Positions 17,611-34,162 of a DNA stretch of 64,000 bases are shown here, piece by piece (position 1 is the first letter of the stretch; each line of letters opens with the position of its first letter). A model generated the notes under the pieces. It was not told where the DNA came from and made no database searches. It worked only from the letters and a program-made list of their open reading frames with translations. The DNA is taken from assembly GCF_900103805.1 (NCBI RefSeq), contig NZ_FNIB01000003.1, positions 138,987-202,986 of the forward strand, read 5' to 3'. This stretch comes from Cryobacterium flavum. Lineage in GTDB: Bacteria; Actinomycetota; Actinomycetes; Actinomycetales; Microbacteriaceae. The translations under genes were made by a program, and so were the position numbers.

Positions 17611-17622
17611 ATTGTAAACAAT
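17611..17622. promoter_or_regulatory. ATTGT-N2-ACAAT operator, copy 1 (own regulator)
   Basis: ATTGTAAACAAT lies 80 bases upstream of the GntR-type regulator gene. It is one of seven such palindromes in 17.6-34.2 kb, and this one probably gives autoregulation. The GT-N2-AC core agrees with operators of the FadR branch of GntR regulators. Confidence 0.7.
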
Positions 17623-17701
17623 TGACAGACCGCTGAACTGCGTCACATCGTCAATGAAATTCTCATTCCATGCAATTCAGACATTCACCCAAGGAAGAAC
17701 T

Positions 17702-18391
17702 GTGAAGGGTATGCCCCAGCGATATTCATTGGAACCCGTCATCCAGGAATCCACCCCGTCGATCATCGCCCGCAAGCTTCGGTACGCGATCGCACACGGC
17801 GAGGTGGCTCCCGGGGCTCAACTGGGCGAGGCCGAACTCGCCCGCGAGCTCGGCGTCAGCCGGGGTCCGCTGCGCGAAGCGATGCAACGGCTGACCCAGG
17901 AGGGCCTGCTGGTCAGTATTCGCAACCGGGGCTTGTTTGTCATCGAAATGACGGATGCTGAGATTCGCGACATGTACGTGCTGCGCACCGCCATCGAATC
18001 GGCCGCCTGCAAGCTGCTCGTGCGCGCCGACCACGTCGCCGCCGGTGAAGACCTGCTGGCCAAGGTATCCGAGATGGAGAATGCGGCCGCCTCCGGCGAC
18101 CGCGCCGCCATGAGCGACGCCGACATGGCCTTCCACGAACACCTCGTCGCGTTGAGCGGCAGCCGCAGCCTCGCACGTATCCACAGCACGCTCATGACCG
18201 AGACGCGCATGTGCCTGACCGTGCTGCAGGACTCGTACCGGGTCACCGAGGAGTGGATCGCTGAGCATCGCGGCATCGCCGAGGCTGTGCTGGGCGGGGA
18301 TGGTCCGTTGGCCGAAAGCCGGTTGAGTGACCACGAAGACGATGCGCTGGCGCGACTGACTACCGAACCGGCATCTGTTTCGGTCGGTTGA
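17702..18391 (+). CDS. GntR/FCD-family transcriptional regulator of the catabolic island
   Basis: A protein of 229 residues. The N-terminal winged helix contains ARKLRYAIAHGEVAPGAQLG, ELARELGVSRGPLREAMQRL and VSIRNRGLFV, typical GntR. The C-terminal half is an all-helical FCD ligand domain with DMYVLRTAIESAACKLLV, a conserved MAFHEHLVALSGS (His) and a later EHRGIAEAVL (His), which in the family bind a metal and an organic acid. GTG at 17702 is preferred because AAGGA sits at 17691-17695. The matching palindromes at every transcription unit from 17.6 to 36 kb make it the likely local repressor. The ligand is unknown. Confidence 0.88.
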   Translation: MKGMPQRYSLEPVIQESTPSIIARKLRYAIAHGEVAPGAQLGEAELARELGVSRGPLREAMQRLTQEGLLVSIRNRGLFVIEMTDAEIRDMYVLRTAIESAACKLLVRADHVAAGEDLLAKVSEMENAAASGDRAAMSDADMAFHEHLVALSGSRSLARIHSTLMTETRMCLTVLQDSYRVTEEWIAEHRGIAEAVLGGDGPLAESRLSDHEDDALARLTTEPASVSVG

Positions 18392-18408
18392 GTCCGAAAC
18401 CGGCGCTG

Positions 18409-19644
18409 CTACGGGGTGACCTCGCCGACCAGCCGCAGGCAGAGCAGAGCATAGGCGCGGGCGGCGCAGACCAGTTCGGTGACGCTCACCGATTCATCGA
18501 TCTGGTGGGCCTGGTGGTTGAGGTCGCCAGGCCCGAACACGATCGTCGGAATGCCGAACTCGCGGTCGATGAAGCCGCCGTCGCAGGCGGCGCTCCACCC
18601 GCCGATCGGGCTTTCCCCGCCTCCCGCGTCTGCCGCTGCAGCGACGGTCTGGATTACGATCGGACTCTGGGCGCTGGTGCGAAAGCCGGGCATCTCCATG
18701 GTCACCTCGAAGGTCACGGTGATGCCAGCACGGTCGATGCCGGCCGCCGTGACCTGGGCGGCGAGGGCCGCCACGATCTGCTGCGGGTCTTCGCCCGGCA
18801 TGAGACGCCGATCGAGCCAGACCCGGCAGTCGGCCGCGACCATCGAGGTGCCGTCACCACCCTCGATGCGGCCGACGTTCCAACTGCCCGCGCCGAGCAG
18901 GTCATCCTGGTTCGCCTGCAGCCGTGCGTGATCGGCCAGAATGAGCGCAATGATCTTCGAGGCGGCGCTGATGGCATTGCGCCCATCGGCCGGGCGACCG
19001 GAGTGCGCGGACTTACCCTGCACGGTCAGCTCAATGTAGGCGTCGCCGCGGCAGGCGATGACGGTGTGCAGGTCGGTCGGTTCGGCGACCACGCAGGCCC
19101 TGTAGTGGCCGATACCACCGGCGGCTGACGCGGCCGCAGTCAGGGAGCGGATGCCGAGCCCCAGATCTTCCTCATCGACCGTGCAGAACAGGGCGGCCGG
19201 GCCGGCCAGGGTCACGTCGGCGCGCTTGATGGCGGCCAGGGCCAGCACGATGGCGGCCAGGCCGCCCTTCATGTCGGTGGACCCACGCCCGATCAGCCGG
19301 TCGCCGTGTCGCATCGGCACGAAGGGGTCGCGGCTCCAGCCCTCGCCGGCCGGGACGACGTCGGAGTGGCCGAGAAACATGAGGCCGGGCGCTGTTCCTC
19401 CCGTCAGGGTGGCCACGAGGTTGGGGCGCCCGGGGGCGACCTCGGTCACCCTCGTGCTGAGACCGTGCGCCGCGCAGGCGGCGCGCAGCACGCTCACCGT
19501 GTCGTTCTCGGTGCCGCCTGGGTTCTCCCCGGCCGCAGCGATGAGCGCGGAGGCGAGATCGACAATGCTCTGCTCGGTGATGAGGTCGAGTACACGGGAC
19601 TCGGTGTCGCTGAGCACGCCTTCAGTGGTCGTTGTGGTCATCAT
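18409..19644 (-). CDS. M20-family deacylase (ArgE/DapE-like)
   Basis: A protein of 411 residues with the M20 metal ligands in order: FLGHSDVVP (His), GRGSTDMKGG (Asp), CTVDEEDLG (catalytic Glu plus ligand Glu), VVAEPTD and NHQAHQIDE (His). The dimerisation domain contains LTVQGKSAHSGRP. The family hydrolyses N-acyl amino acids such as N-acetylornithine or succinyl-diaminopimelate. It is last in a minus-strand operon, six bases after an aminotransferase gene and downstream of a DoeA-like hydrolase. A fitting job would be removal of an acyl group from the ring-opened product. In known ectoine clusters that step uses the unrelated DoeB. Confidence 0.88.
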   Translation of the reverse strand: MMTTTTTEGVLSDTESRVLDLITEQSIVDLASALIAAAGENPGGTENDTVSVLRAACAAHGLSTRVTEVAPGRPNLVATLTGGTAPGLMFLGHSDVVPAGEGWSRDPFVPMRHGDRLIGRGSTDMKGGLAAIVLALAAIKRADVTLAGPAALFCTVDEEDLGLGIRSLTAAASAAGGIGHYRACVVAEPTDLHTVIACRGDAYIELTVQGKSAHSGRPADGRNAISAASKIIALILADHARLQANQDDLLGAGSWNVGRIEGGDGTSMVAADCRVWLDRRLMPGEDPQQIVAALAAQVTAAGIDRAGITVTFEVTMEMPGFRTSAQSPIVIQTVAAAADAGGGESPIGGWSAACDGGFIDREFGIPTIVFGPGDLNHQAHQIDESVSVTELVCAARAYALLCLRLVGEVTP

Positions 19645-19650
19645 CGGTTC

Positions 19651-20877
19651 TCAGAGTAGATCGGTCTCGCGCGCGGCGCTGGCACGGTCGAGGGCCCGGG
19701 TGAGGCGAATGACGCCTTCCTCGGTGCGCTCGGGGCTGGTCGACGCGAAGCACAGGCGCAGGGCGTCATCGAACCGGCCGCTCGGCGACAGGGCCGGCCC
19801 CGGAATGAAGGCGACGCCCTCGGCCAGGGCCGTTTTGAACAGCGCCTGGGTGGAGGTGGCGGCATCCGCTCCCTGCAGGGTGAGCCAGAGAAAGAAGCCG
19901 CCCTCGGGGTCGGTCATCGTGACGCGATCGCCGAGGTGGCGGCGCAGGCTGGCCTGCATCGCCTCCTTACGGGCGCGGTATTCGATGCGCAGAAAATCGA
20001 GGTGGGCATCGAGGCTGCCGCGGCGGATGAACTCGGTGAGAATGTGCTGGCCGGGAATGTTGGTGCAGGTATCCATGGTCTGCTTGGCGTTGATGACCAG
20101 CTGGCGCACGGCGGGGTCGGTGTCGACCCAGCCCACCCGCAGACCGGGCGCGAGAATCTTGGAGAAGGTGCGCACCGAGAACAGCAGCGGGTCGTTCGGG
20201 CTGAGCGTCTGAAAGTTAGGAATGTCGGTGCCAGCAAAGCGGAGCAGGCCGTAGGGGTCGTCGTCGATGATGACGGCATTCCACTGGTGCGCGAGCTCGA
20301 TCAAGAGTTCACGGCGGGCCAGCGACAGGGTGGTGCCAGACGGGTTTTGAAAGTTGGGGATGACGTAGATGGCCTTGGGCGTGCCACCGGCCCGGGCGAC
20401 CAGCCCGGGCAGCGCCTCGACGATAAGACCGTTCTCGTCGATCGGCGCTTCGAGCAGTTCGGCGCCGTAGCTCAGCGCGGTCGCCGACCCGTTGGTATAG
20501 GTGGGGGACTCGACGATCACGAGGTCACCCGGGTCGACGAAAATCTTGCAGGCCAGGTCGAGGCCCTGCATTCCGCCGGTGGTGATGGTGATGCGCTCGG
20601 CGCTGGTCGGGTCAGGCGTGGTCGACAGGTAGTCGACGAGGTTCGACAGCAGACCGGGCTCACCCTCGGTGGCGCCATAGGTGAAGGAACTGTGATCGAA
20701 GCGGCTCGCGGCGATCTCACGGAACGCCTCAAGGGGTACTGCATCGTCGGCGGGGGAGCCCATGGCAAAGCGCACGATGTCGTGTTCCTGGGCGGCGAGC
20801 AGCGAGGTGCTGGAGTCGATCACCGACCCGATCAGGTTTTCGGCACGGCGGGCGAGGGGCATGGTGGAACTTTTCAT
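19651..20877 (-). CDS. PLP-dependent aminotransferase, class I/II
   Basis: A protein of 408 residues, fold-type I. It resembles the 2-aminoadipate/MocR-type aminotransferase group, with GGMQGLDLACKIFVDPGD, VIPNFQNPSGTTLS, IIDDDPYGLLRF and the PLP lysine in RTFSKILAPGLRVGW. There is no N-terminal winged helix, so this is the enzyme and not a MocR regulator. Middle gene of the M24 - aminotransferase - M20 unit, with short spacers of 43 and 6 bases. It probably transaminates an amino acid intermediate. The substrate cannot be read from sequence. Confidence 0.88.
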   Translation of the reverse strand: MKSSTMPLARRAENLIGSVIDSSTSLLAAQEHDIVRFAMGSPADDAVPLEAFREIAASRFDHSSFTYGATEGEPGLLSNLVDYLSTTPDPTSAERITITTGGMQGLDLACKIFVDPGDLVIVESPTYTNGSATALSYGAELLEAPIDENGLIVEALPGLVARAGGTPKAIYVIPNFQNPSGTTLSLARRELLIELAHQWNAVIIDDDPYGLLRFAGTDIPNFQTLSPNDPLLFSVRTFSKILAPGLRVGWVDTDPAVRQLVINAKQTMDTCTNIPGQHILTEFIRRGSLDAHLDFLRIEYRARKEAMQASLRRHLGDRVTMTDPEGGFFLWLTLQGADAATSTQALFKTALAEGVAFIPGPALSPSGRFDDALRLCFASTSPERTEEGVIRLTRALDRASAARETDLL

Positions 20878-20920
20878 CGGATATCGCAGTTCATCGAGCG
20901 TCGGTGTTGCGTGTTCGGGG

Positions 20921-22093
20921 TTAGGAATGGGAAGTGAGAAGGCGCCGGGGAAAGCTGGTGAAGGTCTCCACGCCGGTCGCGGTGACCCGAATGGATTCGC
21001 TGAGCTCGCAGCCGAAGTTCTCCATCCACATGCCGCCGATCAGATGGAAGGTCATGTTCTCCTGCAGCACGGTGTCGTCTTCGCCGCGCAGGCTCACGGT
21101 GCGTTCGCCCCAGTCCGGCGGGTAGGCCAGGCCGATGGAATAGCCGATCCGGGAGGGTTTCTCGAGTCCATACCGAGCGAGCGTCACATTCCACGCCTCG
21201 GCAAGGTCGCGGGTACCGACGCCGGGGCGTACGAGGTCGAGCACGGAGCTGAGTCCGTCGTTGATGGCGTCGGCGAGCCGGGCGAGTTGGTCACTCGGCT
21301 GCCCAAGAACGATCGTGCGCGCCATCGGCACGTGGTAGCGGTGATGGGCACCGGCCAGCTCAACGATCACGGCCTGGCCGTCCTCAAACGGCTGGTCGTT
21401 CCAGGTGAGGTGGGGCGTGTCGGCCTCCACCCCGGTGGGGAGCATCGGCACGATCGCGGTGTAGTCCCCGCCGATTTCGGGGGTGCCCGCGATCTGAGCC
21501 TGGGAGATGGCGGCGGCGGCATCGCACTGGCGCACGCCGACTCTTACGTGTTCCACCGCGGCGGTCATGGCCGACTCGGCGACTCTCGCGGCGAGCCTCA
21601 TCTGCGCGATCTCGGCATCCGTTTTGATGACGCGCACCCAATTGACCAACTCGACCGCATCGACGAAGGTCCATTCGGGCAGACCGGTTTCGAGGGCGCG
21701 ATACGCCTTGGGAGAGAAGAACTGCGAGTCCATCTCGAGGCCGACCCGATTCGGTTCGACCAGGCCGCGCGCGCGCAGGGCGTCCGCGACCCAGTCGAAG
21801 GGGTGTAGGTGCGGGCGGTGCACGAAACTTTCGGGGTAGCCGATCATGTTGTCCGGCGGCAGCCAGGCGGTGCGAAAGGCGCCCTGGGCATCCATCGCCC
21901 GCAGAAAGAACAGCAGGTCGCCGGTCAGCGGAACAAATAGTACCTGCGGGGTGTAAAACGACCAGGCGTTGTAGCCGGTGAGATAGTTCAGGTTGGCCGG
22001 GTCGGTGACCAACAGGCTGGAGAGCCCCTGGGCCTCCATTCGGCGGCGCACATTGGCTAGTCGTTCGGCATACTCGCTGCTGGTGAAGAGCAC
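20921..22093 (-). CDS. M24-family hydrolase resembling ectoine hydrolase DoeA/EutD
   Basis: A protein of 390 residues with a creatinase-like N-terminal domain (LNYLTGYNAWSFYTPQ, RAMDAQGAFRTAWLP) and a pita-bread M24 domain (GGDYTAIVPMLPTG, HLTWNDQPF, GYSIGLAYPPDWGERTVSLR). These blocks agree, as I remember them, with ectoine hydrolase DoeA, which opens the tetrahydropyrimidine ring of ectoine to N-acetyl-diaminobutyrate. Classic M24 metal ligands look only partly kept, which also fits creatinase/DoeA-type enzymes. First gene behind the palindrome at 22119. A proline-peptidase function is less likely given the neighbours. Confidence 0.8.
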   Translation of the reverse strand: MLFTSSEYAERLANVRRRMEAQGLSSLLVTDPANLNYLTGYNAWSFYTPQVLFVPLTGDLLFFLRAMDAQGAFRTAWLPPDNMIGYPESFVHRPHLHPFDWVADALRARGLVEPNRVGLEMDSQFFSPKAYRALETGLPEWTFVDAVELVNWVRVIKTDAEIAQMRLAARVAESAMTAAVEHVRVGVRQCDAAAAISQAQIAGTPEIGGDYTAIVPMLPTGVEADTPHLTWNDQPFEDGQAVIVELAGAHHRYHVPMARTIVLGQPSDQLARLADAINDGLSSVLDLVRPGVGTRDLAEAWNVTLARYGLEKPSRIGYSIGLAYPPDWGERTVSLRGEDDTVLQENMTFHLIGGMWMENFGCELSESIRVTATGVETFTSFPRRLLTSHS

Positions 22094-22118
22094 GGGATCC
22101 CTTACATCGGTATTGCCT

Positions 22119-22130
22119 ATTGTTTACAAT
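22119..22130. promoter_or_regulatory. ATTGT-N2-ACAAT operator, copy 2
   Basis: ATTGTTTACAAT is centred about 30 bases upstream of the M24 hydrolase start (22093), inside the long minus-strand operon. It suggests an internal promoter for the M24 - aminotransferase - M20 genes. Confidence 0.75.
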
Positions 22131-22172
22131 CTACAGCCTGGGAGTGCTGGGGGCAAGGCCCAGGGAGGCCGG

Positions 22173-23657
22173 TCAGCGCGGGATCGCGAGGTACTTGTAC
22201 TCGAGGTACTCGTCGATACCAAGCTTGCCGCCCTCGCGGCCCAGGCCGGATTGCTTGACCCCGCCGAACGGGGCGAACGGGTTGGACACCATGCCGGTGT
22301 TGAGCCCGAGCATTCCCACCTCGAGGTCTTCGCCGAGGCGAAAGGCCCGGTTGATGTCCTGAGTATAGAGGTAGCCCACCAGGCCCCAGGGCGTGTTGTT
22401 GGCGAGTTCTACCGCCTCATCTTCGGTGTCGAACGGCACCACCGGGGCAACCGGGCCGAAGATCTCGGTGTTCATGAGGAGCGAGTCGGGGCTGACGTTT
22501 CCGAGCACGGTGGGCTGGTAGAAATAGCCGGCGCCGCCCTCACGCGAGCCGCCGACCACAACGGATGCCCCGCGCGCCACCGCGTCATCGACCAGGCCCT
22601 GCACCTTCAGCAGTGCCTTCTCCTCGATCAGTGGGCCGACGTTCACGCCGTCGGCAGCGCCATCACCGACGCTGAGCTCGCTCATGCGCTGGGCCAGTTT
22701 CGCGGCGAACTCGGTCGCCACGGACCGGTGCACGAACATGCGGTTCGCGGCGGTGCAGGCCTCACCCATGTTGCGCATCTTGGCGACCATCGCTCCATCG
22801 ACGGCCCGGTCGAGGTCGGCGTCGGCGCAGACGATAAACGGGGCGTTTCCGCCGAGCTCCATCGAGGAGCGCATGACGTTGCGGCTGGCCTGCTCCAGCA
22901 GCAGCTTGCCGACGGCGGTGGAGCCGGTGAAGCTCACCTTGCGGGCGATGCCGCTGTCCATCCACGGTTCGACGACGCTGCCGGCCTTCGACGTGGTGAC
23001 GACGTTCAGTACCCCGGCCGGAAGGCCGGCCTCCACCAGAATGTCAACGAGAGCGAGCGAGGTGAGCGGTGTGAGTTCGGCCGGCTTGAACACGATCGTG
23101 CAGCCGGCGGCGATGGCCGGGCCGATCTTGCGGGTGCCCATGGCGAGCGGAAAGTTCCACGGGGTGACGAGTACGCAGGGCCCGACCGGTTCGCGGGTCA
23201 CCAGGATGCGGTGCTTGCCGTCGCCGGTGATCGTGTGGTCGCCGCCGACGCGCACGGCTTCCTCGGAGAACCAGCGAAAGAACTCCGCGGCGTAGGCGAC
23301 CTCGCCGCGTGCATCGGCGAGCGGCTTGCCCATCTCGGAGGTGATGACGAGGGCGAGCTCTTCCTGCCGGCTCATCAGCAGGTCGTAGGCGCGGCGCAGA
23401 ATCTCGCTGCGCGAACGCGGCGAGGTCTTGCCCCAGGCCTTCTGGGCGCGACCGGCCGCCTGGATGGCGAGATCAGCATCCGCTGGGCCGCCGTCAGCGA
23501 CGTGGGCGAGCACGACGCTGGTGGCAGGGTTTTCGACGGCGAAGGTCGCCCCGGACAGAGCGGGCCTCCAGGCACCGTCGATGAACAACCCGGTGTTGAT
23601 CGTGGCGATGATCGTGGCCGCGTCGAGAGCGACCGGGAGTGTTGCGGTGGGGGTCAT
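22173..23657 (-). CDS. NAD(P)-dependent aldehyde dehydrogenase (succinate-semialdehyde dehydrogenase-like)
   Basis: A protein of 494 residues of the ALDH superfamily. It has TPWNFPLAMGTRKIGPA, the cofactor-loop SFTGSTAVGKLLLEQA, the catalytic Glu in SMELGGNAPFIV and the catalytic Cys in GEACTAANR, close to GabD-type succinate-semialdehyde dehydrogenases. In this context the aldehyde from the class III aminotransferase is the likely substrate: succinate semialdehyde, or aspartate semialdehyde in an ectoine pathway (DoeC role). The start overlaps the stop of the upstream FAD/Fe-S gene by four bases, indicating translational coupling. Confidence 0.9.
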   Translation of the reverse strand: MTPTATLPVALDAATIIATINTGLFIDGAWRPALSGATFAVENPATSVVLAHVADGGPADADLAIQAAGRAQKAWGKTSPRSRSEILRRAYDLLMSRQEELALVITSEMGKPLADARGEVAYAAEFFRWFSEEAVRVGGDHTITGDGKHRILVTREPVGPCVLVTPWNFPLAMGTRKIGPAIAAGCTIVFKPAELTPLTSLALVDILVEAGLPAGVLNVVTTSKAGSVVEPWMDSGIARKVSFTGSTAVGKLLLEQASRNVMRSSMELGGNAPFIVCADADLDRAVDGAMVAKMRNMGEACTAANRMFVHRSVATEFAAKLAQRMSELSVGDGAADGVNVGPLIEEKALLKVQGLVDDAVARGASVVVGGSREGGAGYFYQPTVLGNVSPDSLLMNTEIFGPVAPVVPFDTEDEAVELANNTPWGLVGYLYTQDINRAFRLGEDLEVGMLGLNTGMVSNPFAPFGGVKQSGLGREGGKLGIDEYLEYKYLAIPR

Positions 23658-26605
23658 GGGGTGTCCTTTGGTTGAGTGCTAGCGGTGCGTGCGGGGTCAA
23701 GGAGTTGGGCGAGATGGTGGGTCTGACGATTCGGGTCGAGCTGCTGCACCTGCATGTGGCAGCTGAACCCGTCGGTCAGCACGGCCTGTTGCGGCGGCAG
23801 TGCGCGTAGTGCTGGCGCCAGGGCCTGCTCGGCGACGGTCATGCTGAGCTCGTAGTGATCTTTCTCGAAGCCGAAGTTGCCGGCCACGCCGCAGCATCCG
23901 GTCGCCTCCAGCACGTCACGAATACCGACCGCGGTCAGGGCCGCTTTCTGAGCGTTCGCGCCGAAGACCGAGTACTCGTGGCAGTGTGCCTGCACGGTGA
24001 CGCTGTTCGGAGCCTGGCCGCCGGCCCAGGTGGGCTGCCAGCCGCCGGCGGCCAGTTCGGTCACGGCGCCGGCGAAACTGCGGATGCGCTTCGACACCCG
24101 GCGGGCGGCGGCGGTGGGCACGAGTTCGGGCAGGTCCTTGCGCAGGGCGGCCGCGCAGCTGGGCTCGAGCACGACGATCGGCCGGTCGGTGCCATCGTCG
24201 AGCGCGGCGGCGACGTTGGTGAGCAGGCGGCGGGCGGTGGACAACTGGCCGGTGGAGATCCAGGTGAGGCCGCAGCAGGCCTCGGCCGAGCACTCAACGG
24301 TTTTGCCGGCCGATTGCAGCACCCGCTGGGCTGAGCCGGCGACGTCGGGGCGAAAACCGCGGGTGAAGGTGTCGACGAACAGCACGACGTCGGCCGGGCC
24401 CGTGCTGGCCTGCCGTGACAGGGACGGTGAAAGCGTGCGGCGCCAGGCGGATGCCGCGTGGAACCGCGGCAGGCGCCGCTTGGTCGTGACGCCGCCGAGT
24501 CGGGCAATGAGCGTGCCGAGCGGACTGCTCAGCACGAGGTTCACCAGCGGCGCCATCAGCCCGGTCAGTTTCAGCCAACGCGGCAGCCAGCCGAGCGAGT
24601 AGTGCGAGATGGGCCGCAGCCGTCCCTCGTAGTAGTGGTCGAAGAACTCGGATTTGTAGGTGGCCATGTCGACGCCGGCCGGGCAGTCGCTCGAGCAGGC
24701 CTTGCACGACAGGCAGAGGTCGAGAGCCTCGCGCACGTCCTCGGAACGCCAGCCCGCCTGCACGGTGTCGGAGCCGCGAATCATATCCTGGAGCACGCGG
24801 GCCCGGCCGCGGGTGGAATCCTTCTCGTCGCCGGTGGCCCGGTAGCTCGGGCACATGACTCCGCCGGCGTCGCTCCGGCAGCGACCGATGCCGACGCAGC
24901 TCTGCACGGCGTGACTGAACGGGTCGAGCCCAGAGCCGGCCTCAGATCCGTGCTGACCGACCGGGGTGAGATCGAAGCTCGTACGCCAGGCCCGGTTCGG
25001 CACGTCCGTGAGGGCCAGGTGCTCAACCGTTGGTTCCGGGGCGACGATTGAGCCGGGGTTGAGCAGCTGGTTCGGGTCCCAGAGTGCCTTGAATTGGGCA
25101 AACGCGCCCATCATGGCCGGGGAGTACATCAGTGGCAGCAGAGCCGAGCGGGAACGCCCGTCGCCGTGCTCGCCCGAGATGGAGCCGCCGTGCCGCACCA
25201 CGAGTTCGGCGGCGGCGCGGGTGAAGTCGTCCATGATCTGGCGACCTTCGGCGCTGCGCAGGTCGAAGGTGAGGCGCACGTGCATGCAGCCGGCGCCGAA
25301 GTGCCCGTAGATGACGCCGGTCAGGTCGAACTGCGCCATCAGGTTGCGAAAGTCTTCCAGGTATGCGGCGAGATTCTCCGGGGCGACGGCGGAGTCTTCC
25401 CAGCCGGGCCAGGATTCCCCGCCGCTCGCGAGCCGGGCCGACAGGCCGGCGCCGTCTTCACGTACCCGCCAGAGGGAGGCACGTTCGGCGAGGTCCGGCA
25501 CGGCGCGGCCGGCCCGCATCCGCCCATTTTCCCGCAGTCGTGCCAGCAACTTCTCGCCCTCGGCCGCGACGGCGACCGGGTCGTCGCCGTCGATATCGAT
25601 GTAGAGCCAGGCCTTGCCAGCCGGCAGTCCCTGCACCGAGTCCAGGCCCCGACGGGCCTGCATGGTCTGCACGATCGCCTCGTCGATGCCCTCGATGGCG
25701 GCGGGGGAGAACGCGAGAATGGTGGGCACGTCGCGGGCGGCGTCGACGACATCGTCGTAGCCGAGGCTCAGCAGCAGGGCGGCCTGCGGTTGGGGTACGA
25801 GCTGCACGGTCGCTGCGACGACGATGGCGCAGGTTCCCTCGCTGCCGACGAGGGAGCGGGCCACGTCGAAGCCGTGCTCGGGCAGCAGATGCGAGAGGTG
25901 ATAGCCCGACACCTGCCGGGCGATCTGGCCGAGTTCGAGCCGAAATTCCGTCAGATGGTCGGCGGCCAACTGCCGCAGCCCAGCGGTGAGGGTCGAGGCG
26001 AGCGTGACGGCGGCGGCATCCGCTTGATCGGTGGCCTGCAGGCCGGTGCGCGTGGCGGTCAAGCGGATGCCGGCTGTCGTCACCAAGTCGAGCGCGAGCA
26101 CGTGGTCGGAGGTGCGCCCGTGCCGTACCGAGTGATTGCCGCAGGCGTCGTTGCCGATCGCTCCGCCGATCGTGGCGCGGGTGCGACTGGACGGGTCGGG
26201 CGCGAAAGTCAGCGTGCCGTTGGATGAGGCCGCGACCTCGCGTTGCAGGGTGGAAAGGATGACTCCGGCGTCGACCACGGCCGTCCGCGCGGCCAGGTCG
26301 ATGGAGTGAATGCTGTTGAGGTAGCGGGAGAAGTCGAGCACGATTCCCGCCCCGACGGCATTTCCGGCCATCGAGGTGCCGCCGCCGCGGCTGACCAGCG
26401 GAATGCCCTGCTCACTTGCGAACCGGGCGACCGCCACCACGTCAGCCACACTGCGCGGAAAGATCACGGCGACCGGCGCGACCCGATAGTTGCTGGCGTC
26501 GTAGCTGTACTCGCTCAGGCGGCGGGGCGCCGTGTCCACCTCGATTCCGCCGTCCCGCAGCGAGCGGAATCGATCGGAAGTCAGCGTGAGTGGCATCTGG
26601 GGCAT
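23654..26605 (-). CDS. FAD-linked oxidase/Fe-S protein fusion (D-2-hydroxyglutarate/D-lactate dehydrogenase-like)
   Basis: A 983-residue fusion. The N-terminal 480 residues form a PCMH-type FAD domain (VSRGGGTSMAGNAVGAGIVL, GNDACGNHSVRHGRTSDHVL) and FAD-oxidase C-domain (HFGAGCMHVRL, SGEHGDGRSR). The rest is a GlpC/HdrD-like part with two 4Fe-4S clusters (CVGIGRCRSDAGGVMCPSY and CLSCKACSSDCPAGVD) and CCG-type motifs (EACCGLTW, ATGCCGVAGNFG). The layout matches E. coli YdiJ-type D-2-hydroxyglutarate dehydrogenases, which pass electrons to the respiratory chain. With the D-2-hydroxyacid dehydrogenase at 28.1 kb it may interconvert a 2-hydroxy and a 2-oxo acid. It overlaps the aldehyde dehydrogenase gene by four bases. 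Confidence 0.88.
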   Translation of the reverse strand: MPQMPLTLTSDRFRSLRDGGIEVDTAPRRLSEYSYDASNYRVAPVAVIFPRSVADVVAVARFASEQGIPLVSRGGGTSMAGNAVGAGIVLDFSRYLNSIHSIDLAARTAVVDAGVILSTLQREVAASSNGTLTFAPDPSSRTRATIGGAIGNDACGNHSVRHGRTSDHVLALDLVTTAGIRLTATRTGLQATDQADAAAVTLASTLTAGLRQLAADHLTEFRLELGQIARQVSGYHLSHLLPEHGFDVARSLVGSEGTCAIVVAATVQLVPQPQAALLLSLGYDDVVDAARDVPTILAFSPAAIEGIDEAIVQTMQARRGLDSVQGLPAGKAWLYIDIDGDDPVAVAAEGEKLLARLRENGRMRAGRAVPDLAERASLWRVREDGAGLSARLASGGESWPGWEDSAVAPENLAAYLEDFRNLMAQFDLTGVIYGHFGAGCMHVRLTFDLRSAEGRQIMDDFTRAAAELVVRHGGSISGEHGDGRSRSALLPLMYSPAMMGAFAQFKALWDPNQLLNPGSIVAPEPTVEHLALTDVPNRAWRTSFDLTPVGQHGSEAGSGLDPFSHAVQSCVGIGRCRSDAGGVMCPSYRATGDEKDSTRGRARVLQDMIRGSDTVQAGWRSEDVREALDLCLSCKACSSDCPAGVDMATYKSEFFDHYYEGRLRPISHYSLGWLPRWLKLTGLMAPLVNLVLSSPLGTLIARLGGVTTKRRLPRFHAASAWRRTLSPSLSRQASTGPADVVLFVDTFTRGFRPDVAGSAQRVLQSAGKTVECSAEACCGLTWISTGQLSTARRLLTNVAAALDDGTDRPIVVLEPSCAAALRKDLPELVPTAAARRVSKRIRSFAGAVTELAAGGWQPTWAGGQAPNSVTVQAHCHEYSVFGANAQKAALTAVGIRDVLEATGCCGVAGNFGFEKDHYELSMTVAEQALAPALRALPPQQAVLTDGFSCHMQVQQLDPNRQTHHLAQLLDPARTASTQPKDTP

Positions 26606-27953: not shown

Positions 27954-27965
27954 ATTGTCAACAAT
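27954..27965. promoter_or_regulatory. ATTGT-N2-ACAAT operator, copy 3
   Basis: ATTGTCAACAAT, extended to the 16-base perfect palindrome GGATTGTCAACAATCC (27952-27967), lies 28 bases upstream of the class III aminotransferase start. It is paired with copy 4 in the divergent promoter region. Confidence 0.8.
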
Positions 27966-28020
27966 CCTTTCAGGGTGAACGGATGTCGCGAGCCGACTGC
28001 CGAGGCTGGCCAGCAGAGCC

Positions 28021-28032
28021 ATTGTTGACAAT
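28021..28032. promoter_or_regulatory. ATTGT-N2-ACAAT operator, copy 4
   Basis: ATTGTTGACAAT ends 27 bases before the D-2-hydroxyacid dehydrogenase start (28060). It is 67 bases from copy 3, start to start, so both divergent promoters have their own site. Confidence 0.8.
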
Positions 28033-28059
28033 CATCCGTTTCTGCACTGTGCTGGCAGA

Positions 28060-29052
28060 ATGCAAACGACAACTCCAAACCGCCCGATCCTCGTCGTGCT
28101 GTGCGAACCGCTGGACGCGGCGCGGCCCACTGGGATGGACGCTATCGAGCGCGTCGCTGACGTCAGGTACAGCGATGCGGCCGGCCTGCCCGACGCCATC
28201 GAGCACGCCGAGATTCTGCTGCTCTGGGACTTCTTCTCGACCGCGCTTAGGGACGCCTGGCCCCGGGCTCGGGCGCTGAAGTGGGTGCACGTGGCCGCGG
28301 CTGGAGTGGACACCGTGCTGTTCGATGAACTCCGCGCCTCCGACGTCGTGCTCACCAACGCCCACGGCTTCTTCGACGGTCCGATCGCGGAATTCGTGTT
28401 GGCGAACATTCTCGCCCACGACAAACAACTGCACGAGAACCGCGCTTTGCAGCAGGCTCACGAGTGGAAGCACCGGGAGACCCGGCGCACCGCCGGGAGT
28501 ACGGTCCTGGTGGTCGGCACCGGCGGCATCGGTCGGCAGATCGCGCGGCTGCTGCGTGCCGTCGGCCTCGAGGTGCGGGGCGCCGGTCGACGAGCGAGCG
28601 AGAACGACCCGGACTTTGGCGCCATCGTCTCGTCGGCGGCGCTCGCCGAACACGTCGGCTGGGCCGACAACGTGGTCGTGGTCGCGCCGCTGACGAATGA
28701 GACCCGCGGCCTGATCGATGCCGACGTCTTCGACGCGATGAAGGCATCCGCTCATCTGGTGAGCGTCGGCCGCGGCCCACTGATCGACGAGGCGGCCCTG
28801 CTGCAGGCGCTTGAAACCGGCTCGATCGCGGCGGCGTCGCTCGACGTCTTCGTGACGGAACCGCTGCCGGTCCACAGCTCGCTCTGGGACGCCCCGGGGG
28901 TTACCGTCTCGGCCCACATGTCGGGCGATGTTGTGGGGTGGCGCGACGGCCTGGCCGCTCAATTCACCGGCAACGTGACCCGTTGGCTGGCCGGGGAGCC
29001 CCTGGTCAATGTCGTCGACAAGCAGCTCGGTTACGTGGCCCGCGCACAGTGA
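28060..29052 (+). CDS. D-2-hydroxyacid dehydrogenase
   Basis: A protein of 330 residues with the NAD-binding Rossmann motif VLVVGTGGIGRQIA and the catalytic residues of the D-2-hydroxyacid dehydrogenase family: Arg in LVSVGRGPLIDE, Glu in VFVTEPLP and His in VTVSAHMSG. It may reduce a 2-oxo acid formed in the island or oxidise a D-hydroxy acid. The exact substrate is unknown. It is transcribed divergently from the aminotransferase operon and followed, after 165 bases, by the ABC transporter operon with a separate operator. Confidence 0.9.
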   Translation: MQTTTPNRPILVVLCEPLDAARPTGMDAIERVADVRYSDAAGLPDAIEHAEILLLWDFFSTALRDAWPRARALKWVHVAAAGVDTVLFDELRASDVVLTNAHGFFDGPIAEFVLANILAHDKQLHENRALQQAHEWKHRETRRTAGSTVLVVGTGGIGRQIARLLRAVGLEVRGAGRRASENDPDFGAIVSSAALAEHVGWADNVVVVAPLTNETRGLIDADVFDAMKASAHLVSVGRGPLIDEAALLQALETGSIAAASLDVFVTEPLPVHSSLWDAPGVTVSAHMSGDVVGWRDGLAAQFTGNVTRWLAGEPLVNVVDKQLGYVARAQ

Positions 29053-29096
29053 TCGCCGACTCGCTGATGATCACGAAACAAGAACTTTACAATCAG

Positions 29097-29108
29097 ATTG
29101 TTGACAAT
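29097..29108. promoter_or_regulatory. ATTGT-N2-ACAAT operator, copy 5
   Basis: ATTGTTGACAAT (within GATTGTTGACAATC) lies 110 bases before the solute-binding protein start. A nearby TTTACAAT (29087-29094) could be an additional half site. Confidence 0.75.
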
Positions 29109-29217
29109 CATTGGGGTGACTGCGTAGCTTCGACTTACACGTAGAACTCATTCACCTGGCCGTTCCCGAAGCGCTCCACGCGGCGTTCTCGGCCAGGTGA
29201 CCCAGATCGGAGTAATC

Positions 29218-30111
29218 ATGATTGCCAATCTCACTCGGCGTAATGTTCTGCAGGGGGCCGGCGTTGCCGCGCTCGGCGCCGTCTTCGCGGTCGTCGCCAC
29301 CGGCTGCGCCACCGTCACCCCGGCCGGCGAGGCCGTCGACGGCGGCACCGACCTGCTCGCCCTGGCCAAAAAGCAGGGCTACCTGCGCGTGGGCATCGCC
29401 AACGAGCCGCCATACACGCAGGTGAACAGCGACGGAACCGTCACCGGCTGCGAGCCCGACGTTCTCAAGGCCGTCTGCAAGCGCCTCGGAATCGACGATG
29501 TGCAGGGCATCATCACCCCCTACGAATCCATGATTCCCGGCCTGCAGGCCAACCGGTGGGACGCCGTTGCGGCCGGCCTGTTCATGAAGCAGTCGCGCTG
29601 CGCAGAGGTGCTCTACTCCGAACCGGTAATTGTCTCGACCGAGTCGTTCGGCGTGCCGAGCGGAAACCCGAAGAACATCCTCACCGTCGCTGACGTGCTC
29701 GCCGACGCGAGCCTGCGCATCGCCGTGCTGCCCGGAGGGTTCGAAGAGGGTATCCTGAACACGGCCAAGGTTCCGGCCTCCCAGCAGGTCAAGGTCAACG
29801 ACGGCCGCAGCGGCATCGAAGCCCTCGCCGCCGACCGTGCCGACGCATTCTTCCTGCCGACCCTGTCGCTGCGCGCCATCGCCGAGACCGACACAAGCTT
29901 CGAAGTGACCGAGCAGGTTCCGGATGCCCCGCGCACCGGCTCCGGCGCCGCTTTCCGCACCACTGACACCGCGTTCCACAAGGCCTACAACGTTGAGCTC
30001 GAAGCCTTCAAGAAGACCCCCGAGTTCAAGAAAATTCTGGACCTCTGGGGCTTCGACGCCGCGGCCGTAGAGGGCGTCACCGCCGACGAACTCTGCCAGA
30101 CCGAGGGCTAA
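29218..30111 (+). CDS. Solute-binding lipoprotein of a polar amino acid ABC transporter (EhuB-like)
   Basis: A protein of 297 residues. The N-terminus has a twin-arginine-like start (TRRNVLQGAGVAALG) and a lipobox (VVATGC), so it is an anchored extracytoplasmic lipoprotein. The mature part has the family-3 binding-protein pattern YLRVGIANEPPYTQ, VTGCEPDVLKAVCKRLGI and GIITPYESMIPGLQANRWDA. The operon order of binding protein, two permeases, ATPase and EutA-like protein resembles ehu-eut ectoine clusters. ATG at 29218 has GGAG five to eight bases upstream. Substrate specificity is inferred from neighbours only. Confidence 0.85.
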   Translation: MIANLTRRNVLQGAGVAALGAVFAVVATGCATVTPAGEAVDGGTDLLALAKKQGYLRVGIANEPPYTQVNSDGTVTGCEPDVLKAVCKRLGIDDVQGIITPYESMIPGLQANRWDAVAAGLFMKQSRCAEVLYSEPVIVSTESFGVPSGNPKNILTVADVLADASLRIAVLPGGFEEGILNTAKVPASQQVKVNDGRSGIEALAADRADAFFLPTLSLRAIAETDTSFEVTEQVPDAPRTGSGAAFRTTDTAFHKAYNVELEAFKKTPEFKKILDLWGFDAAAVEGVTADELCQTEG

Positions 30112-30210
30112 GCGCTTCTGCCGCCGCGGGTCTGGTGCCCGCGGCGGGCGCACGATCCGGACCAGTCGTATCGGACCATACGTCTCGACCTCGTTGAATT
30201 GGAATGAGTG

Positions 30211-30921
30211 ATGTCCGCCATAATCGAGTACGCGCCACTGCTGTGGCAGGGACTGATGACGACGATTCTGGTCGCCGTCCTCAGCGGCGCCTTGTGTTTA
30301 TTGGTCGCCTTCAGCATGGGCCTGGCCCGGCTGTCGCCGCACTGGATCATCCGCTGGCCGGCGGGAGTGTTCGTTGAAGTGTTTCGTGGCACCTCGCTCA
30401 TCGTGCAGATGTTCTGGTTCTTCTACGCGCTGCCCTTCTTCGGTATCCAACTGCATCCGCTGACCGCTGCGGTGCTCGCCCTCGGCCTCAACGAAGGTGC
30501 CTACGCCGCCGAGGTCGTGCGCGGCGCGATCAGCTCCCGGGCGAAGGGCCAGACCGAGGCCGGCATCGCCCTCGGCATGTCGCCAGCGCTGCGCCTACGC
30601 CGCATCCTGATTCCGCAGTCGATCCCGGCGATGCTGCCGCCGTTTGGCAACGTGATGGTCGACCTGCTGAAGAACACCTCGCTGGTCTCGCTCGTCACCG
30701 TCACCGACCTCACCTTTCGAGCGCAGATGATTCGCAGCACCACCGGCGAAACCGCCGCGGTGTTTTTGACCATCCTCGTGATGTACTTCCTGCTTTCCGT
30801 GCTGCTGACCATGCTCACGCAGTGGATGGAGAAGCGCTACGCCCTCGACCGCAGAGCTCTCGCGGTGCAGCGCAAGGCTCTGCGTGAAGCCTCGCTCAAG
30901 GACAAGGTGGGTGCACTGTGA
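30211..30921 (+). CDS. Polar amino acid ABC transporter permease 1 (EhuC-like)
   Basis: A protein of 236 residues with about five membrane helices. The HisM/GlnP-type permease motif ATPase-contact loop is ALGMSPALRLRRILIPQSIP, preceded by GLNEGAYAAEVVRGAI. These are signatures of the HisMQ family. It pairs with the next gene as a heterodimer that carries a polar amino-acid-like solute through the cytoplasmic membrane. The stop overlaps the next start by four bases. The C-terminal 25 residues (RRALAVQRKALREAS) are a basic cytosolic extension. Confidence 0.88.
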   Translation: MSAIIEYAPLLWQGLMTTILVAVLSGALCLLVAFSMGLARLSPHWIIRWPAGVFVEVFRGTSLIVQMFWFFYALPFFGIQLHPLTAAVLALGLNEGAYAAEVVRGAISSRAKGQTEAGIALGMSPALRLRRILIPQSIPAMLPPFGNVMVDLLKNTSLVSLVTVTDLTFRAQMIRSTTGETAAVFLTILVMYFLLSVLLTMLTQWMEKRYALDRRALAVQRKALREASLKDKVGAL

Positions 30922-31574
30922 TCTGGGACAACGCGTTCGCGATCTCCATCATCCCGATGCTGCTCAAGGGACTCTGGGTGACTATCCAGCTCACCCTGCT
31001 CGGCACGCTCATCGCCGCCGTACTCGGACTCGTAGCCGCGGTCATCCGTCGCCTGAATATTCCGGTGCTGTCGCCGCTCGTCTCGTTCATGGTCATCTTC
31101 ATTCGGGGCACACCGCTGCTGATTCAGGCCTACGTGGCGTTCTTCGTGCTGCCGATCTACGGCATCAGCTTCAACGCCTTCACGACCGGTGTCGTGATCA
31201 TCGGCATCAATTACAGCGCCTACATGGCGGAGGTCTACCGCAGTGGAATCCAGGGCGTGCCAGCCGGCCAGTGGGAGGCCGCGACAGCACTGAGTCTGCC
31301 GCCTGTGCGCACCTGGTGCCGGGTCATTCTGCCGCAGGCCGTGCGCACCGTCATCCCCATGCTCGGCAACTATCTCATTCAGATGTTCAAGGACTCGGCC
31401 GTGCTCTCGGCCATCACCGTGGTCGAACTCATGGCGACCGCGCAGTCCATCGGCACGTCCACCTACCGCTACCTCGAGCCGCTCACCATGGCCGGCGCCC
31501 TCTTCCTCCTGGTCAGCTACCCGGCCTCACGGCTCGTCAACAAAATGGAGCGACGCTATGCACCCAAGCAATGA
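30918..31574 (+). CDS. Polar amino acid ABC transporter permease 2 (EhuD-like)
   Basis: A protein of 218 residues, HisMQ family, with [20 protein letters not shown] and the coupling-loop region [20 protein letters not shown]. The GTG start overlaps the previous stop (four-base overlap) and the stop is 17 bases inside the ATPase gene, so the three genes are translationally coupled. It should form the membrane channel with the preceding permease. Confidence 0.88.
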
Positions 31575-32442
31575 TTCATATTCAGCGGATGCCGCCCGGC
31601 CCGATGCTGCCTTTCCCGGCGGGCCGCGCACCGACCGCATCACCGGGCTGCCCACCGGATCGGCACCGATCGTGGCCGGCGGGCCGATCGTGGCGTTCGA
31701 CAACGTCAGCAAGAACTGGGGCGAGAACCAGGTACTCAAGGCCCTGAACTTCAACGTGAACCCGGGGGAGAAGGTGTCGATCATCGGCCCGTCCGGGTCG
31801 GGCAAGACCACCATCCTGCGCATTCTCATGACGCTCGAGTCGCCCACCGATGGCCAGGTTCACGTTGACGGGGATGTGCTGTGGAATGTGAAGCACGGCG
31901 ACAAGATTCGGGAGACCAAGGTGATGCGCGCCACCCGCCGCAAAATCGGCATGGTTTTTCAGGGCTTCAACCTGTTTCCGCACATGACGGCCCTCGAGAA
32001 CATCATCGAGGCGCCGGTGCACGTGCTCGGCATGAATAAGGCCGAGGCGCGCGATCGGGCCGCCGAACTGCTGCAGCTCGTGGGCCTCGGCGCGCATATG
32101 AACCACACCCCGCCGCAACTGAGCGGTGGCCAACAGCAGCGCGTCGCCATCGCCCGCGCCCTAGCCATGCGCCCCAAGGTGCTCCTGTTCGACGAACCGA
32201 CCTCTGCCCTCGACCCGGAGCTGATCGGCGAGGTGCTCAACGTCATTCGCAATCTCGCCAACAGCACCGACATGACCATGCTCATGGTCACCCACGAGAT
32301 GCGCTTCGCCGAGGAGATCAGCGACCGGGTCGTCATGTTCGACCACGGCTCGGCGGTGGAAGGCGGACCGCCCGAGCAGATCTTCAAGAACCCGCAGGAA
32401 GAGCGCACCCGCGCCTTCCTCCAGGCCGTACTCAAGCACTGA
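31558..32442 (+). CDS. ABC transporter ATPase (EhuA-like)
   Basis: A protein of 294 residues. It has Walker [10 protein letters not shown], the Q-loop in [19 protein letters not shown], signature LSGGQQQR, Walker [15 protein letters not shown] and the switch histidine in [11 protein letters not shown], all of the polar amino acid (HisP/GlnQ) type. The N-terminal 45 residues ([19 protein letters not shown]) are an extension not usual for the family. The ATG at 31558 may therefore be too early, with later starts possible. The stop overlaps the next gene by one base (TGATG). Confidence 0.9.
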
Positions 32443-33248
32443 TGGACTTCCCTCGCGCCGACGCCGGCGAGATCTACCGACCGCCGACCCCCGTGTCACT
32501 GTCACCGGCGGTGGCCCCGGGCGACCGCCCGCCCACCGTCGGTCCGTTGCGCCAACGCGGAATCGGCGTCATCTGCCCGTTCGACATGGCCCTGGACCGT
32601 GAGCTGTGGCGGTGGATGCCGCCCGAAGTCTCACTGTTTTTCACCCGCACGGTTTTCGTCGACGAGCCGGTCAGCGTCGAGCTCGCCCTCGAGGTCAGCG
32701 ACACGGCCGATATCCTGGCGGCGGCTCGCAACCTCAGCGGTGTCAGCCCCGAAGTCATGGCGTACGCCTGCACTTCGGGCAGCTTCGTCAACGGGGTGGC
32801 CGGCTCCGACCGAATCTCGGCCGCGATGGAATGCGGGGGAGCGCCCCGTGGAATCACCACGTCGGGGGCCCTCGTTGACGCCCTCGACTATCTGGCCGTG
32901 CATCGCCTCGTGGTCGTCACGCCGTATGTCGCCGACCTGGCCTCGCTGCTCGACGTGTACCTGGCCGAGAGCGGCCGCCTGGTGGTCGCGCAGTCCTCGC
33001 TCGGCCTCGGCGAGAACATCTGGCAGGTGCCCTACGCCACGGCGATCGAGCTCATCCGCAATGCCGATGTGCCCGAGGCAGAAGCGATTTTCGTGAGCTG
33101 CACCAACCTGCCCACCTACGACATTCTGGCGCCGCTCGAACTCGAGCTCGGCAAACCCATCATCTCGGCCAACCAGGTCACCGCGTGGGCCGCGCTGCGA
33201 GCACTGGGACTGGCTGCGGTCGGGCCCGGGCAGCGCCTGCTCGCGTAG
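32442..33248 (+). CDS. Asp/Glu racemase-superfamily protein, EutA/maleate isomerase-like, two-cysteine form
   Basis: A protein of 268 residues. The arylmalonate decarboxylase/maleate isomerase fold is recognised from VMAYACTSGSFVNG (first Cys) and EAIFVSCTNLPTYDIL (second Cys), which flank the active site in maleate cis-trans isomerases and EutA-like proteins. EutA is part of hydroxyectoine utilisation, and its exact reaction is not settled. It follows the transporter ATPase with a one-base overlap, the same neighbour relation as in ehu-eut loci. The first 30 residues are probably unstructured. Confidence 0.82.
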   Translation: MDFPRADAGEIYRPPTPVSLSPAVAPGDRPPTVGPLRQRGIGVICPFDMALDRELWRWMPPEVSLFFTRTVFVDEPVSVELALEVSDTADILAAARNLSGVSPEVMAYACTSGSFVNGVAGSDRISAAMECGGAPRGITTSGALVDALDYLAVHRLVVVTPYVADLASLLDVYLAESGRLVVAQSSLGLGENIWQVPYATAIELIRNADVPEAEAIFVSCTNLPTYDILAPLELELGKPIISANQVTAWAALRALGLAAVGPGQRLLA

Positions 33249-33268
33249 GGCGGCGCATCCGCCTATTT
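33249..33268 (+). terminator. Weak terminator-like hairpin
   Basis: GGCGG (33249-33253) and CCGCC (33259-33263) form a 5-bp stem directly after the stop of the EutA-like gene, followed by TATTT. It lies in a 91-base convergent gap. The stem is short, so activity is uncertain. Confidence 0.3.
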
Positions 33269-33339
33269 GCGTTCCGGGTGCAAGTTTGCTGGCCAGGCGC
33301 AGTCTTGATCGTGCGCCCATCCAACGAAGGTGTGCTCCG

Positions 33340-34074
33340 CTAGGCCGGGAGGACCGCCGCGTCGCGAAACAGCGTGCCAAGGTCGTCGGTCGGGTGGATT
33401 TCGCCGGCCAGACGCAGTCCCTGCCACACCGTGACCTGGTTGGCGGTGAGTACGGGCTTGCCGAGCGCGGCTTCGAGTTCGTTGATCCAGCGGGCGGAGT
33501 GCAGGGCGGTGTCCGGAATGAGAATGGCCTGCGCCGCCGGGCTGTCGTTGCTGCGGGCGAGCGCCAGCACGCCGTCGTGGTCGAGCTCGCCGGCCAGGGC
33601 GGCCGTCTTGATGTCGTGGCTGACCAGTTCAAGCACCGTGATTCCGGCGTCACCGAGCAGGCGGGCAAAGTGTTGCGCCACATCGTGGGGGTAGGTCGCG
33701 GCGACGGCAACCGTGGTGAGGCCGAGGGCGCGCACCGCCTCGACGAAGGCGAGCGAGGTCGACGACACCGGCACGCCGAGCGCCGCCTTGACCTCGGCGA
33801 CCTGCTGGTGGGCGCCCTCCCAGCCGAACACGAAGCTGCCGGAGGTGCAGGCCCACATCACGGCGTCGGGAGCGTATGCCCGCAGCGCGGCAGACCCCTC
33901 GAGCAAGCGTGCGCTCTTGCCGAGGTCGAGCAGGGCGTCAACCTCGTGGGCATCGACGCCGACCGAGGTATGCACGAGCGGAAGCCGGGCGTACCCGCCG
34001 AGCACCTGCTCCAGAAAGGGGTAGTCATCTTCGGCTCCGAAGCCGGGGTAAAGCATGCCGACGGTGACGCTCAT
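33340..34074 (-). CDS. Asp/Glu racemase-superfamily protein lacking the second active-site cysteine
   Basis: A protein of 244 residues, a paralogue of the preceding EutA-like protein. It keeps the first cysteine (VMWACTSGSFVFG) but has AILIPDTALHSARW where the other has the second cysteine (Cys replaced by Asp). Two-base acid/base racemisation or isomerisation would therefore need another residue, and a decarboxylase-like or different lyase reaction is possible. The ATG at 34074 has AGGGAG upstream. It is transcribed divergently from the amidase with a degenerate operator copy 30 bases upstream. Confidence 0.82.
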   Translation of the reverse strand: MSVTVGMLYPGFGAEDDYPFLEQVLGGYARLPLVHTSVGVDAHEVDALLDLGKSARLLEGSAALRAYAPDAVMWACTSGSFVFGWEGAHQQVAEVKAALGVPVSSTSLAFVEAVRALGLTTVAVAATYPHDVAQHFARLLGDAGITVLELVSHDIKTAALAGELDHDGVLALARSNDSPAAQAILIPDTALHSARWINELEAALGKPVLTANQVTVWQGLRLAGEIHPTDDLGTLFRDAAVLPA

Positions 34075-34103
34075 CTGGATCTCCCTGCGTAAATCATCAT
34101 TAG

Positions 34104-34115
34104 AATGTAGACAAT
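34104..34115. promoter_or_regulatory. Degenerate ATTGT-N2-ACAAT operator, copy 6
   Basis: AATGTAGACAAT differs from the consensus at one arm position. It lies 30 bases upstream of the second EutA-like gene and 47 bases from copy 7, so the divergent promoter carries a strong and a weak site. Confidence 0.5.
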
Positions 34116-34150
34116 ACTACAAGAATCGACCCCACTGTGATAGTTTGAGG

Positions 34151-34162
34151 ATTGTCGACAAT
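34151..34162. promoter_or_regulatory. ATTGT-N2-ACAAT operator, copy 7
   Basis: ATTGTCGACAAT, within GGATTGTCGACAATCT, lies 57 bases upstream of the amidase start and probably controls the amidase-DUF3830 operon. Confidence 0.8.

Follow-up and report, generated by a model that had tools for sequence, protein, structure and literature searches.

Ectoine is a widespread compatible solute that is also eaten by microbes. In proteobacteria, ectoine catabolism is controlled by EnuR/EutR, a repressor of the MocR type within the GntR superfamily, for which the operator ATTGT-N6-ACAAT has been predicted according to the available parts of PMC8739950 and PMC5320631. Here we describe a locus of Cryobacterium flavum, analyzed within a stretch of 64,000 nucleotides (the 64-kb window in the following), in which copies of the palindrome ATTGT-N2-ACAAT accompany a gene island and a GntR regulator of the FCD type. 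We are confident, short of certainty, that the locus represents a substrate-inducible regulon for the uptake and degradation of ectoine, probably also of 5-hydroxyectoine, as a nutrient, under the neighboring FCD regulator, which would most likely be a repressor. It resembles the EnuR/EutR system in the GntR superfamily membership of the regulator, in the control of ehu, doe and eut genes as proposed here and in the half-sites ATTGT and ACAAT. In contrast, EnuR/EutR has an aminotransferase domain that binds pyridoxal phosphate and a 6-nt spacer, whereas an FCD sensor and a 2-nt spacer are found here.

In the FadR subfamily, TKGT and ACMA boxes are described in which GT and AC are separated by 3 nt, or by 2 nt in some groups (PMC4494728, text available in part). 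The groups with the 2-nt gap (GntR, HpxS, HypR, MdcY, PrpR and UxuR) are similar to the locus in regulator type, boxes and gap, and extra adjacent half-sites are reported for them in the same paper. With TTGT-N2-ACAA in all 129 exact sites collected below, the palindrome reads as a canonical FadR-type box. Because TTGT/ACAA also fits this general box, the likeness to the arms of the EnuR operator may be a coincidence. Ectoine is not mentioned in the main text of PMC4494728 as far as it was available.

Putative ectoine clusters were reported in 2026 for Bacillota, together with PucR, and for Actinomycetota, and ectoine catabolism in Gram-positive bacteria was called not previously described (PMC13188858, available text). 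Like the island, these clusters pair Ehu or other transporters with genes for putative ectoine catabolism, and eutE was absent in the Bacillaceae examined there. They differ in the regulator, since PucR was proposed for Bacillota and the available text neither mentions GntR nor names a regulator of the actinobacterial clusters. The ehuABCD-eutABCDE operon of S. meliloti (PMC5924519, available text) has in common with the island EhuABCD, EutA- and EutD-like proteins, an aminotransferase and an aldehyde dehydrogenase. Unlike this operon, the island has no EutB or EutC above cut-off, contains an M20 deacylase and is divided into seven separate units, with a hydroxyacid dehydrogenase, a YdiJ-like protein, an amidase and a DUF3830 protein as additions. 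No paper on an FCD-type ectoine regulator was found in the literature searched, which had most subscription papers and RegPrecise outside its reach.

Scanning the window for ATTGT-N2-ACAAT returned six exact copies and one copy with a single mismatch, all located between 17.6 and 34.2 kb, and no further copy was found in the window with one mismatch allowed. Operator 1 (ATTGTAAACAAT, 17611..17622) is exact and lies upstream of the regulator gene, as in autoregulation, 31 or 79 bases before the start depending on whether ATG 17654 or GTG 17702 is taken as the start codon. Further exact copies precede doeA by 25 bases (operator 2, ATTGTTTACAAT, 22119..22130), the gene of the class III aminotransferase AT3 by 27 bases (operator 3, ATTGTCAACAAT, 27954..27965) and the hydroxyacid dehydrogenase gene, likewise by 27 bases (operator 4, ATTGTTGACAAT, 28021..28032). 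The sequence of operator 4 recurs exactly in operator 5 (29097..29108), upstream of ehuB and 88 or 109 bases before its start. The single mismatch is found in operator 6 (AATGTAGACAAT, 34104..34115), 29 bases before the start of eutA2, and an identical one is present in two further Cryobacterium genomes (G155 and G174). Operator 7 (ATTGTCGACAAT, 34151..34162) is exact and located 56 bases before the amidase start. Judged by open reading frames (ORFs) and strand, the region from 17.7 to 36.1 kb would form seven transcription units, each with a site: the regulator gene; M20–AT1–doeA; AT3–ydiJ–aldehyde dehydrogenase; the hydroxyacid dehydrogenase gene; ehuBCDA–eutA1; eutA2; and amidase–DUF3830. 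The initial annotation had named these seven sites, none elsewhere in the window and one for every transcription unit, all of which was confirmed. Its statement that four sites lie 26–30 bases before a start codon agrees with the distances of 25, 27, 27 and 29 bases found here when these are counted inclusively.

Shuffles of the window gave a mean of 0.30 sites, and none of 100 shuffles reached seven. The whole genome (4,040,838 bases in 42 contigs) contains eight exact copies, six in the island and two elsewhere, compared with about 0.3 estimated from base composition. With one mismatch allowed, 30 matches were obtained in the genome versus 8 for a reversed control pattern; the site at 34104 is the only one of the 22 one-mismatch matches that is located in the island. 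As the initial annotation had expected, a genome-wide scan for exact copies returns mainly the island sites, and the palindrome is not equally frequent across the genome. Both exact copies outside the island have a GC centre. They precede a gene for a family-5 binding protein (L001) and a second FAD-oxidase gene (L002), and a genome-wide regulon was rejected. These off-island sites were not counted as regulon members because, when they were compared with 20 further sites of the genus (14 GC-centred and 6 TG-centred), few shared a locus with another. The product of the FAD-oxidase gene behind the GC-centred site L002:1501-1512 (position 114652 on contig C25 of the window genome, G000) is 48% identical to the YdiJ-like protein of the island. 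Matches to GntR-type regulators lie 4–8 kb from this site on the same contig (118600, 119319 and 122555), and it is possibly the operator of a paralogous regulator.

The regulator gene (17654..18391, + strand) lies at the left edge of the island and encodes a GntR protein of the FadR subfamily, with an N-terminal winged helix (PF00392, 62.3 bits) and a C-terminal FCD domain (PF07729, 72.5 bits), both above the Pfam cut-off. An aminotransferase domain is missing, so that the protein does not have the MocR architecture of EnuR/EutR. Among 44 related regulators, V52, S53, R54, G55, P56, R58, E59 and R74 of the winged-helix part were invariant in all 44, and D141, H145, H189 and H211 were at least 90% conserved. 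The latter four match the Asp-His-His-His metal site of TM0439-like FCD proteins.

Conservation was followed across related loci. A species-genome collection was scanned with a DoeA alignment, and the best 80 of at least 587 relatives were kept. Without the duplicates L103, L104 and L106, and with the window and six fetched loci added, 84 loci were compared, a few of them on short contigs. Genes were assigned at identities of at least 38% for the regulator, 50% for the class I/II aminotransferase AT1 and 40% for the other cluster genes. Since the locus stretches span about 21 kb, absence of a gene is often only a cut. Exact sites were present in 42 of the 44 loci with the regulator (116 sites) and in 51 of the 54 loci with AT1 (129 sites), and none of the 30 loci without AT1 had one. 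When all 1024 half-sites were ranked at spacer 2, ATTGT came first with 129 copies. The best of the 159 other half-sites of the same A/T content had 2 copies, and second place among half-sites of any composition was taken by the GC-rich CGGCG with 75. A chance palindrome is ruled out by this ranking together with the window shuffles, the genome counts and the reversed control.

Exact ATTGT/ACAAT pairs at spacers 0, 1 and 3–8 were absent from the 84 loci. The EnuR-type operator, with zero exact pairs at spacer 6, was therefore rejected. Spacers 9–15 gave 17 pairs (two at 9, nine at 10, three at 11 and one each at 12, 13 and 15), and among the pairs at spacer 10 are degenerate sites as well as a full site flanked by an additional ATTGT. 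In L122, L123 and L136, which belong to two Paeniglutamicibacter genomes and one Micrococcaceae genome, the operator is degenerate (GATGCAGACAATC) and a further ATTGT half-site lies nearby. A regular third half-site is a minor feature, since a direct ATTGT 3 bp away was found in 6 of the 129 sites.

The sites were closely associated with the cluster genes, and 124 of 129 are followed within 250 bp by the start of such a gene. The genes behind them are AT3 (52 sites), hydroxyacid dehydrogenase (40), amidase (29), eutA2 (25), doeA (20), the regulator (11) and others, where one site may serve two divergent genes. Of the 54 loci with AT1, 53 contain the M20 gene, 49 the hydroxyacid dehydrogenase, 48 the aldehyde dehydrogenase, 46 ydiJ and 44 AT3; DUF3830 and eutA2 were found in 24 each, the amidase in 22 and eutA1 in 18. 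Gene order is rearranged among the clusters of Cryobacterium, Homoserinimonas, Arthrobacter, Gordonia, Williamsia, Serinicoccus and Mycobacterium, and the pairing of site and gene persists. Conserved pairs across rearranged clusters lend strong support to the claim of the initial annotation that the sites form a regulon over a single uptake-and-degradation island. Microbacteriaceae relatives of DoeA with about 49–57% identity were set aside as a different arrangement, since 19 of 20 fetched regions had no exact site, mostly with the M20 gene alone beside doeA. Sites, statistics, conservation, co-occurrence and gene families were all obtained by computation.

Several observations count against the regulon as proposed. 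A number of the loci come from close relatives, so that the counts do not represent independent events. Two loci (L136 and L137) have a related regulator (56–58%) and no exact site, and three others (L139, L143 and L180) have AT1 and no exact site. An exact site ahead of the regulator gene itself was found in just 11 loci. The 51 genomes of the genus Cryobacterium without doeA still contain 49 exact sites in total, 35 of which are located in 42 genomes without a regulator match. In favor of the regulon, the six of the 57 genus genomes with doeA have 5–8 exact sites each, and the other 51 have 0–3 each.

For the mode of control, we propose that the FCD regulator would bind as a dimer to ATTGT-N2-ACAAT before its own gene and before every other unit, and that it would most likely repress by blocking RNA polymerase. 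An ectoine-derived carboxylate (ectoine, N-acetyl-diaminobutyrate or diaminobutyrate) would then relieve repression by occupying the FCD pocket with its predicted metal. Repression is considered most likely because a few tens of bases separate many sites from the start codon that follows, and the precedent of HypR points in the same direction. That the regulator is instead an activator, needing its ligand to bind or to recruit the polymerase, appears unlikely to us. The sequence ATTGTTGACAAT includes the -35-like hexamer TTGACA, and TG or CA forms the centre of 106 of the 129 sites, so that the operators may coincide with the -35 region. Where a single downstream gene was clear (43 sites), TG in gene direction was only moderately more common than CA (20 versus 13, with 10 other), and a strictly oriented TTGACA in every operator is therefore not claimed. 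The placement of many sites is rather that of a repressor, as 11 of the 20 doeA sites are located 23–26 bases before the start, with starts extrapolated from the alignments. HypR, an FCD regulator of Streptomyces, is moreover a repressor and autorepressor (PMC6608401, available text). Repression thus remains the preferred mode.

The compound handled by the island is very probably ectoine or hydroxyectoine, because all four subunits of an Ehu-type ATP-binding cassette transporter score above the NCBIfam equivalog cut-offs set for the ectoine/hydroxyectoine system. These are the binding protein EhuB (29197..30111, + strand; TIGR02995, 248.6 bits, cut-off 190.9), the permeases EhuC (30208..30921, +; TIGR03004, 244.3 bits, cut-off 196.95) and EhuD (30918..31574, +; TIGR03003, 255 bits, cut-off 205.2) and the ATPase EhuA (31558..32442, +; TIGR03005, 376 bits, cut-off 345.4), which together would import the compound. 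The EhuB pocket, which we take to consist of a Glu, an aromatic residue, Tyr, Phe and Arg, was kept in all eight island-type EhuB proteins compared. Among solved proteins, EhuB is closest to 2Q88 (E 8e-59, with 1e-12 for the next one), a structure of EhuB with ectoines (PMC5924519).

The catabolic genes are consistent with this substrate. The DoeA/EutD-like ectoine hydrolase of the M24 family (20921..22093, - strand) carries the Pfam domains M24 and Creatinase_N, and its nearest solved relative is the ectoine hydrolase DoeA, 6TWK/6TWJ (E 1.6e-111; next 5e-20). This enzyme would open the ring, after which the M20 deacylase of the ArgE/DapE family (18409..19644, -; TIGR01910, 232.4 bits, cut-off 217.6) would take off the acetyl group. 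The nearest solved relatives of the latter by sequence are DapE/ArgE proteins, and it is a candidate deacetylase in the role of DoeB/EutE. An aminotransferase and an aldehyde dehydrogenase would then lead to aspartate. Candidates for these steps are the class III aminotransferase AT3 (26640..27926, -) in the DoeD role and a succinate-semialdehyde-dehydrogenase-like aldehyde dehydrogenase (22173..23657, -) in the DoeC role, both assigned by family match; by family, we infer that these two and the M20 deacylase fit the DoeD, DoeC and DoeB steps. The class I/II aminotransferase AT1 (19651..20877, -) is related to the aminotransferase domains of MocR regulators and has no helix-turn-helix. It could be kin to the sensing domain of EnuR. 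Matches of AT1 to such domains (PdxR, 203 bits; EhuR/EnuR, 125 bits) were both below cut-off.

The remaining genes of the island encode a YdiJ/GlcD-like dehydrogenase with flavin adenine dinucleotide and iron–sulfur domains (23654..26605, -; 451 bits to YdiJ, below the cut-off of 1350), a D-2-hydroxyacid dehydrogenase (28060..29052, +; family match), two EutA-like proteins of the arylmalonate decarboxylase/racemase superfamily (32442..33248, +, and 33340..34074, -), an amidase (34219..35622, +; NF004815, 727.3 bits, cut-off 506) and a DUF3830 protein (35628..36134, +; PF12903, 216.5 bits). The nearest solved relative of the DUF3830 protein is the uncharacterized 3KOP (E 1e-93), and a full-text search found no literature naming DUF3830. 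An ectoine synthase was not matched in this genome, and ectoine synthesis was rejected as the reason for the island. Only 1 of the 57 genus genomes (G173) has a synthase, so that the island looks like one for scavenging.

The regulator and its regulon could also be real and serve another cyclic amidine or an N-acyl diamino acid, to which the relatives of Ehu and DoeA would have been adapted. We regard this as improbable, and it draws on several features of the island. The DoeA-like hydrolase reaches 440.6 bits with TIGR02993 (residues 2–387 of 390), below the equivalog cut-off of 613, and both EutA-like proteins fall short of the NCBIfam cut-off of 318 (TIGR02990, 102.8 and 92.5 bits). No EutB or EutC above cut-off was found genome-wide (best 276.8 bits against a cut-off of 413.35 and 180.9 against 471.65, respectively), and neither of the best matches is in the island. 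Given this absence and the M20 protein as deacetylase candidate, the pathway is not the classic eutABCDE one. The amidase, hydroxyacid dehydrogenase, YdiJ-like and DUF3830 genes are foreign to the classic pathway, and Ehu genes are a minority in related clusters (of the 54 AT1 loci, in fetched stretches of about 21 kb, just 8 show ehuB and 11 show ehuA). A different substrate is, however, hard to combine with four Ehu subunits above their cut-offs and with an EhuB whose nearest solved relative binds ectoines. In addition, the transporter varies between clusters, and three whose fetched stretches show no Ehu genes (L109, L110 and L132, from Gordonia/Williamsia) have a major facilitator superfamily protein adjoining the regulator, for which the best NCBIfam match is the osmolyte symporter ProP (383–388 bits, cut-off 544). 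A protein of this superfamily is also present in L116 and L142, and the single ORF tested in L134 gave no match. A ProP-like transporter next to the regulator speaks to some extent for a compatible solute as the substrate.

The assignment of the regulator to the sites was followed within the genus. A regulator match (E up to 1e-30) was found in 15 of the 57 genomes: three with an island of the window type (G000, G155 and G174), three with a second type (G173, G180 and G199), seven with an intact and two with a truncated regulator without doeA, the lack of doeA being tested genome-wide. The second type, also seen in Homoserinimonas (G064), has a regulator 39–44% identical to the window regulator over the matched stretch, and the Cryobacterium second-type regulator, compared with the window genome, matches the window regulator best (E 9e-38, with the next match at 4e-19). 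Here the exact palindrome lies before AT3, amidase, doeA, ehuB/eutA2 and DUF3830/eutA1 (the G180 contig ends before the ehu genes); the regulator gene is placed after that of the aldehyde dehydrogenase and has no site directly before it. An exact site precedes the gene of each of the seven intact orphan regulators, and four of the seven genomes (G141, G166, G167 and G195) contain no other exact copy. As far as sequence can tell, loss of the island, with regulator and exact site kept in seven island-less genomes, ties the regulator to the site. That another GntR-family protein encoded elsewhere binds the palindrome, with the FCD regulator incidental, is very improbable, since the orphan regulators carry the site before their own gene and cluster and regulator keep together from genus to genus, even though TTGT/ACAA-type boxes with a 2-nt gap occur in several FadR-subfamily groups (PMC4494728, text available in part), the genome contains nine further related-regulator matches and 9 of 12 AT1 loci without a regulator in the stretch, several of them short contigs or contig ends, keep sites.

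The island (18398-38856) is missing at nine loci of the genus, where the regulator or a truncated piece remains at the junction. In G195, G166, G167, G141, G078 and G184, the 18.4-kb point of the window joins the 38.8-kb point within about 110–220 bases. The hydroxyacid dehydrogenase gene was left beside the regulator in G162 and G197, with a fragment in G193, which favors deletion over insertion as the likely origin of the empty site. A homologue of an HNH gene is located elsewhere in the fetched stretches of G193 and G197. Pairwise ratios of nonsynonymous to synonymous substitution (dN/dS) were 0.07–0.21 among orphan regulators versus 0.07–0.08 among the three with islands, which suggests that constraint is still strong, or slightly relaxed, or that the losses are recent. 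Outside the island, positions 14551-15924 of the window encode an Astacin-family protease with a C-terminal DUF346 repeat; the repeat part matches several times in tandem in G078 (L078:14773-16680).

It is conceivable, and we offer it tentatively, that Actinomycetota have their own FCD-type ectoine regulator that keeps the EnuR half-sites at a spacing of 2 instead of 6. The pathway would then be a variant as well, lacking EutB, EutC and probably also the classic EutE, and its hydroxyectoine branch may be served by DUF3830, the amidase, the D-2-hydroxyacid dehydrogenase and the YdiJ-like flavoprotein. The exact operator marks the pathway membership of genes, including the DUF3830 family and the two EutA-like proteins. 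It also offers a simple test of a regulator class without a link to ectoine in the literature searched. The orphan regulators indicate that regulator and operator outlast the pathway in several species of one genus.

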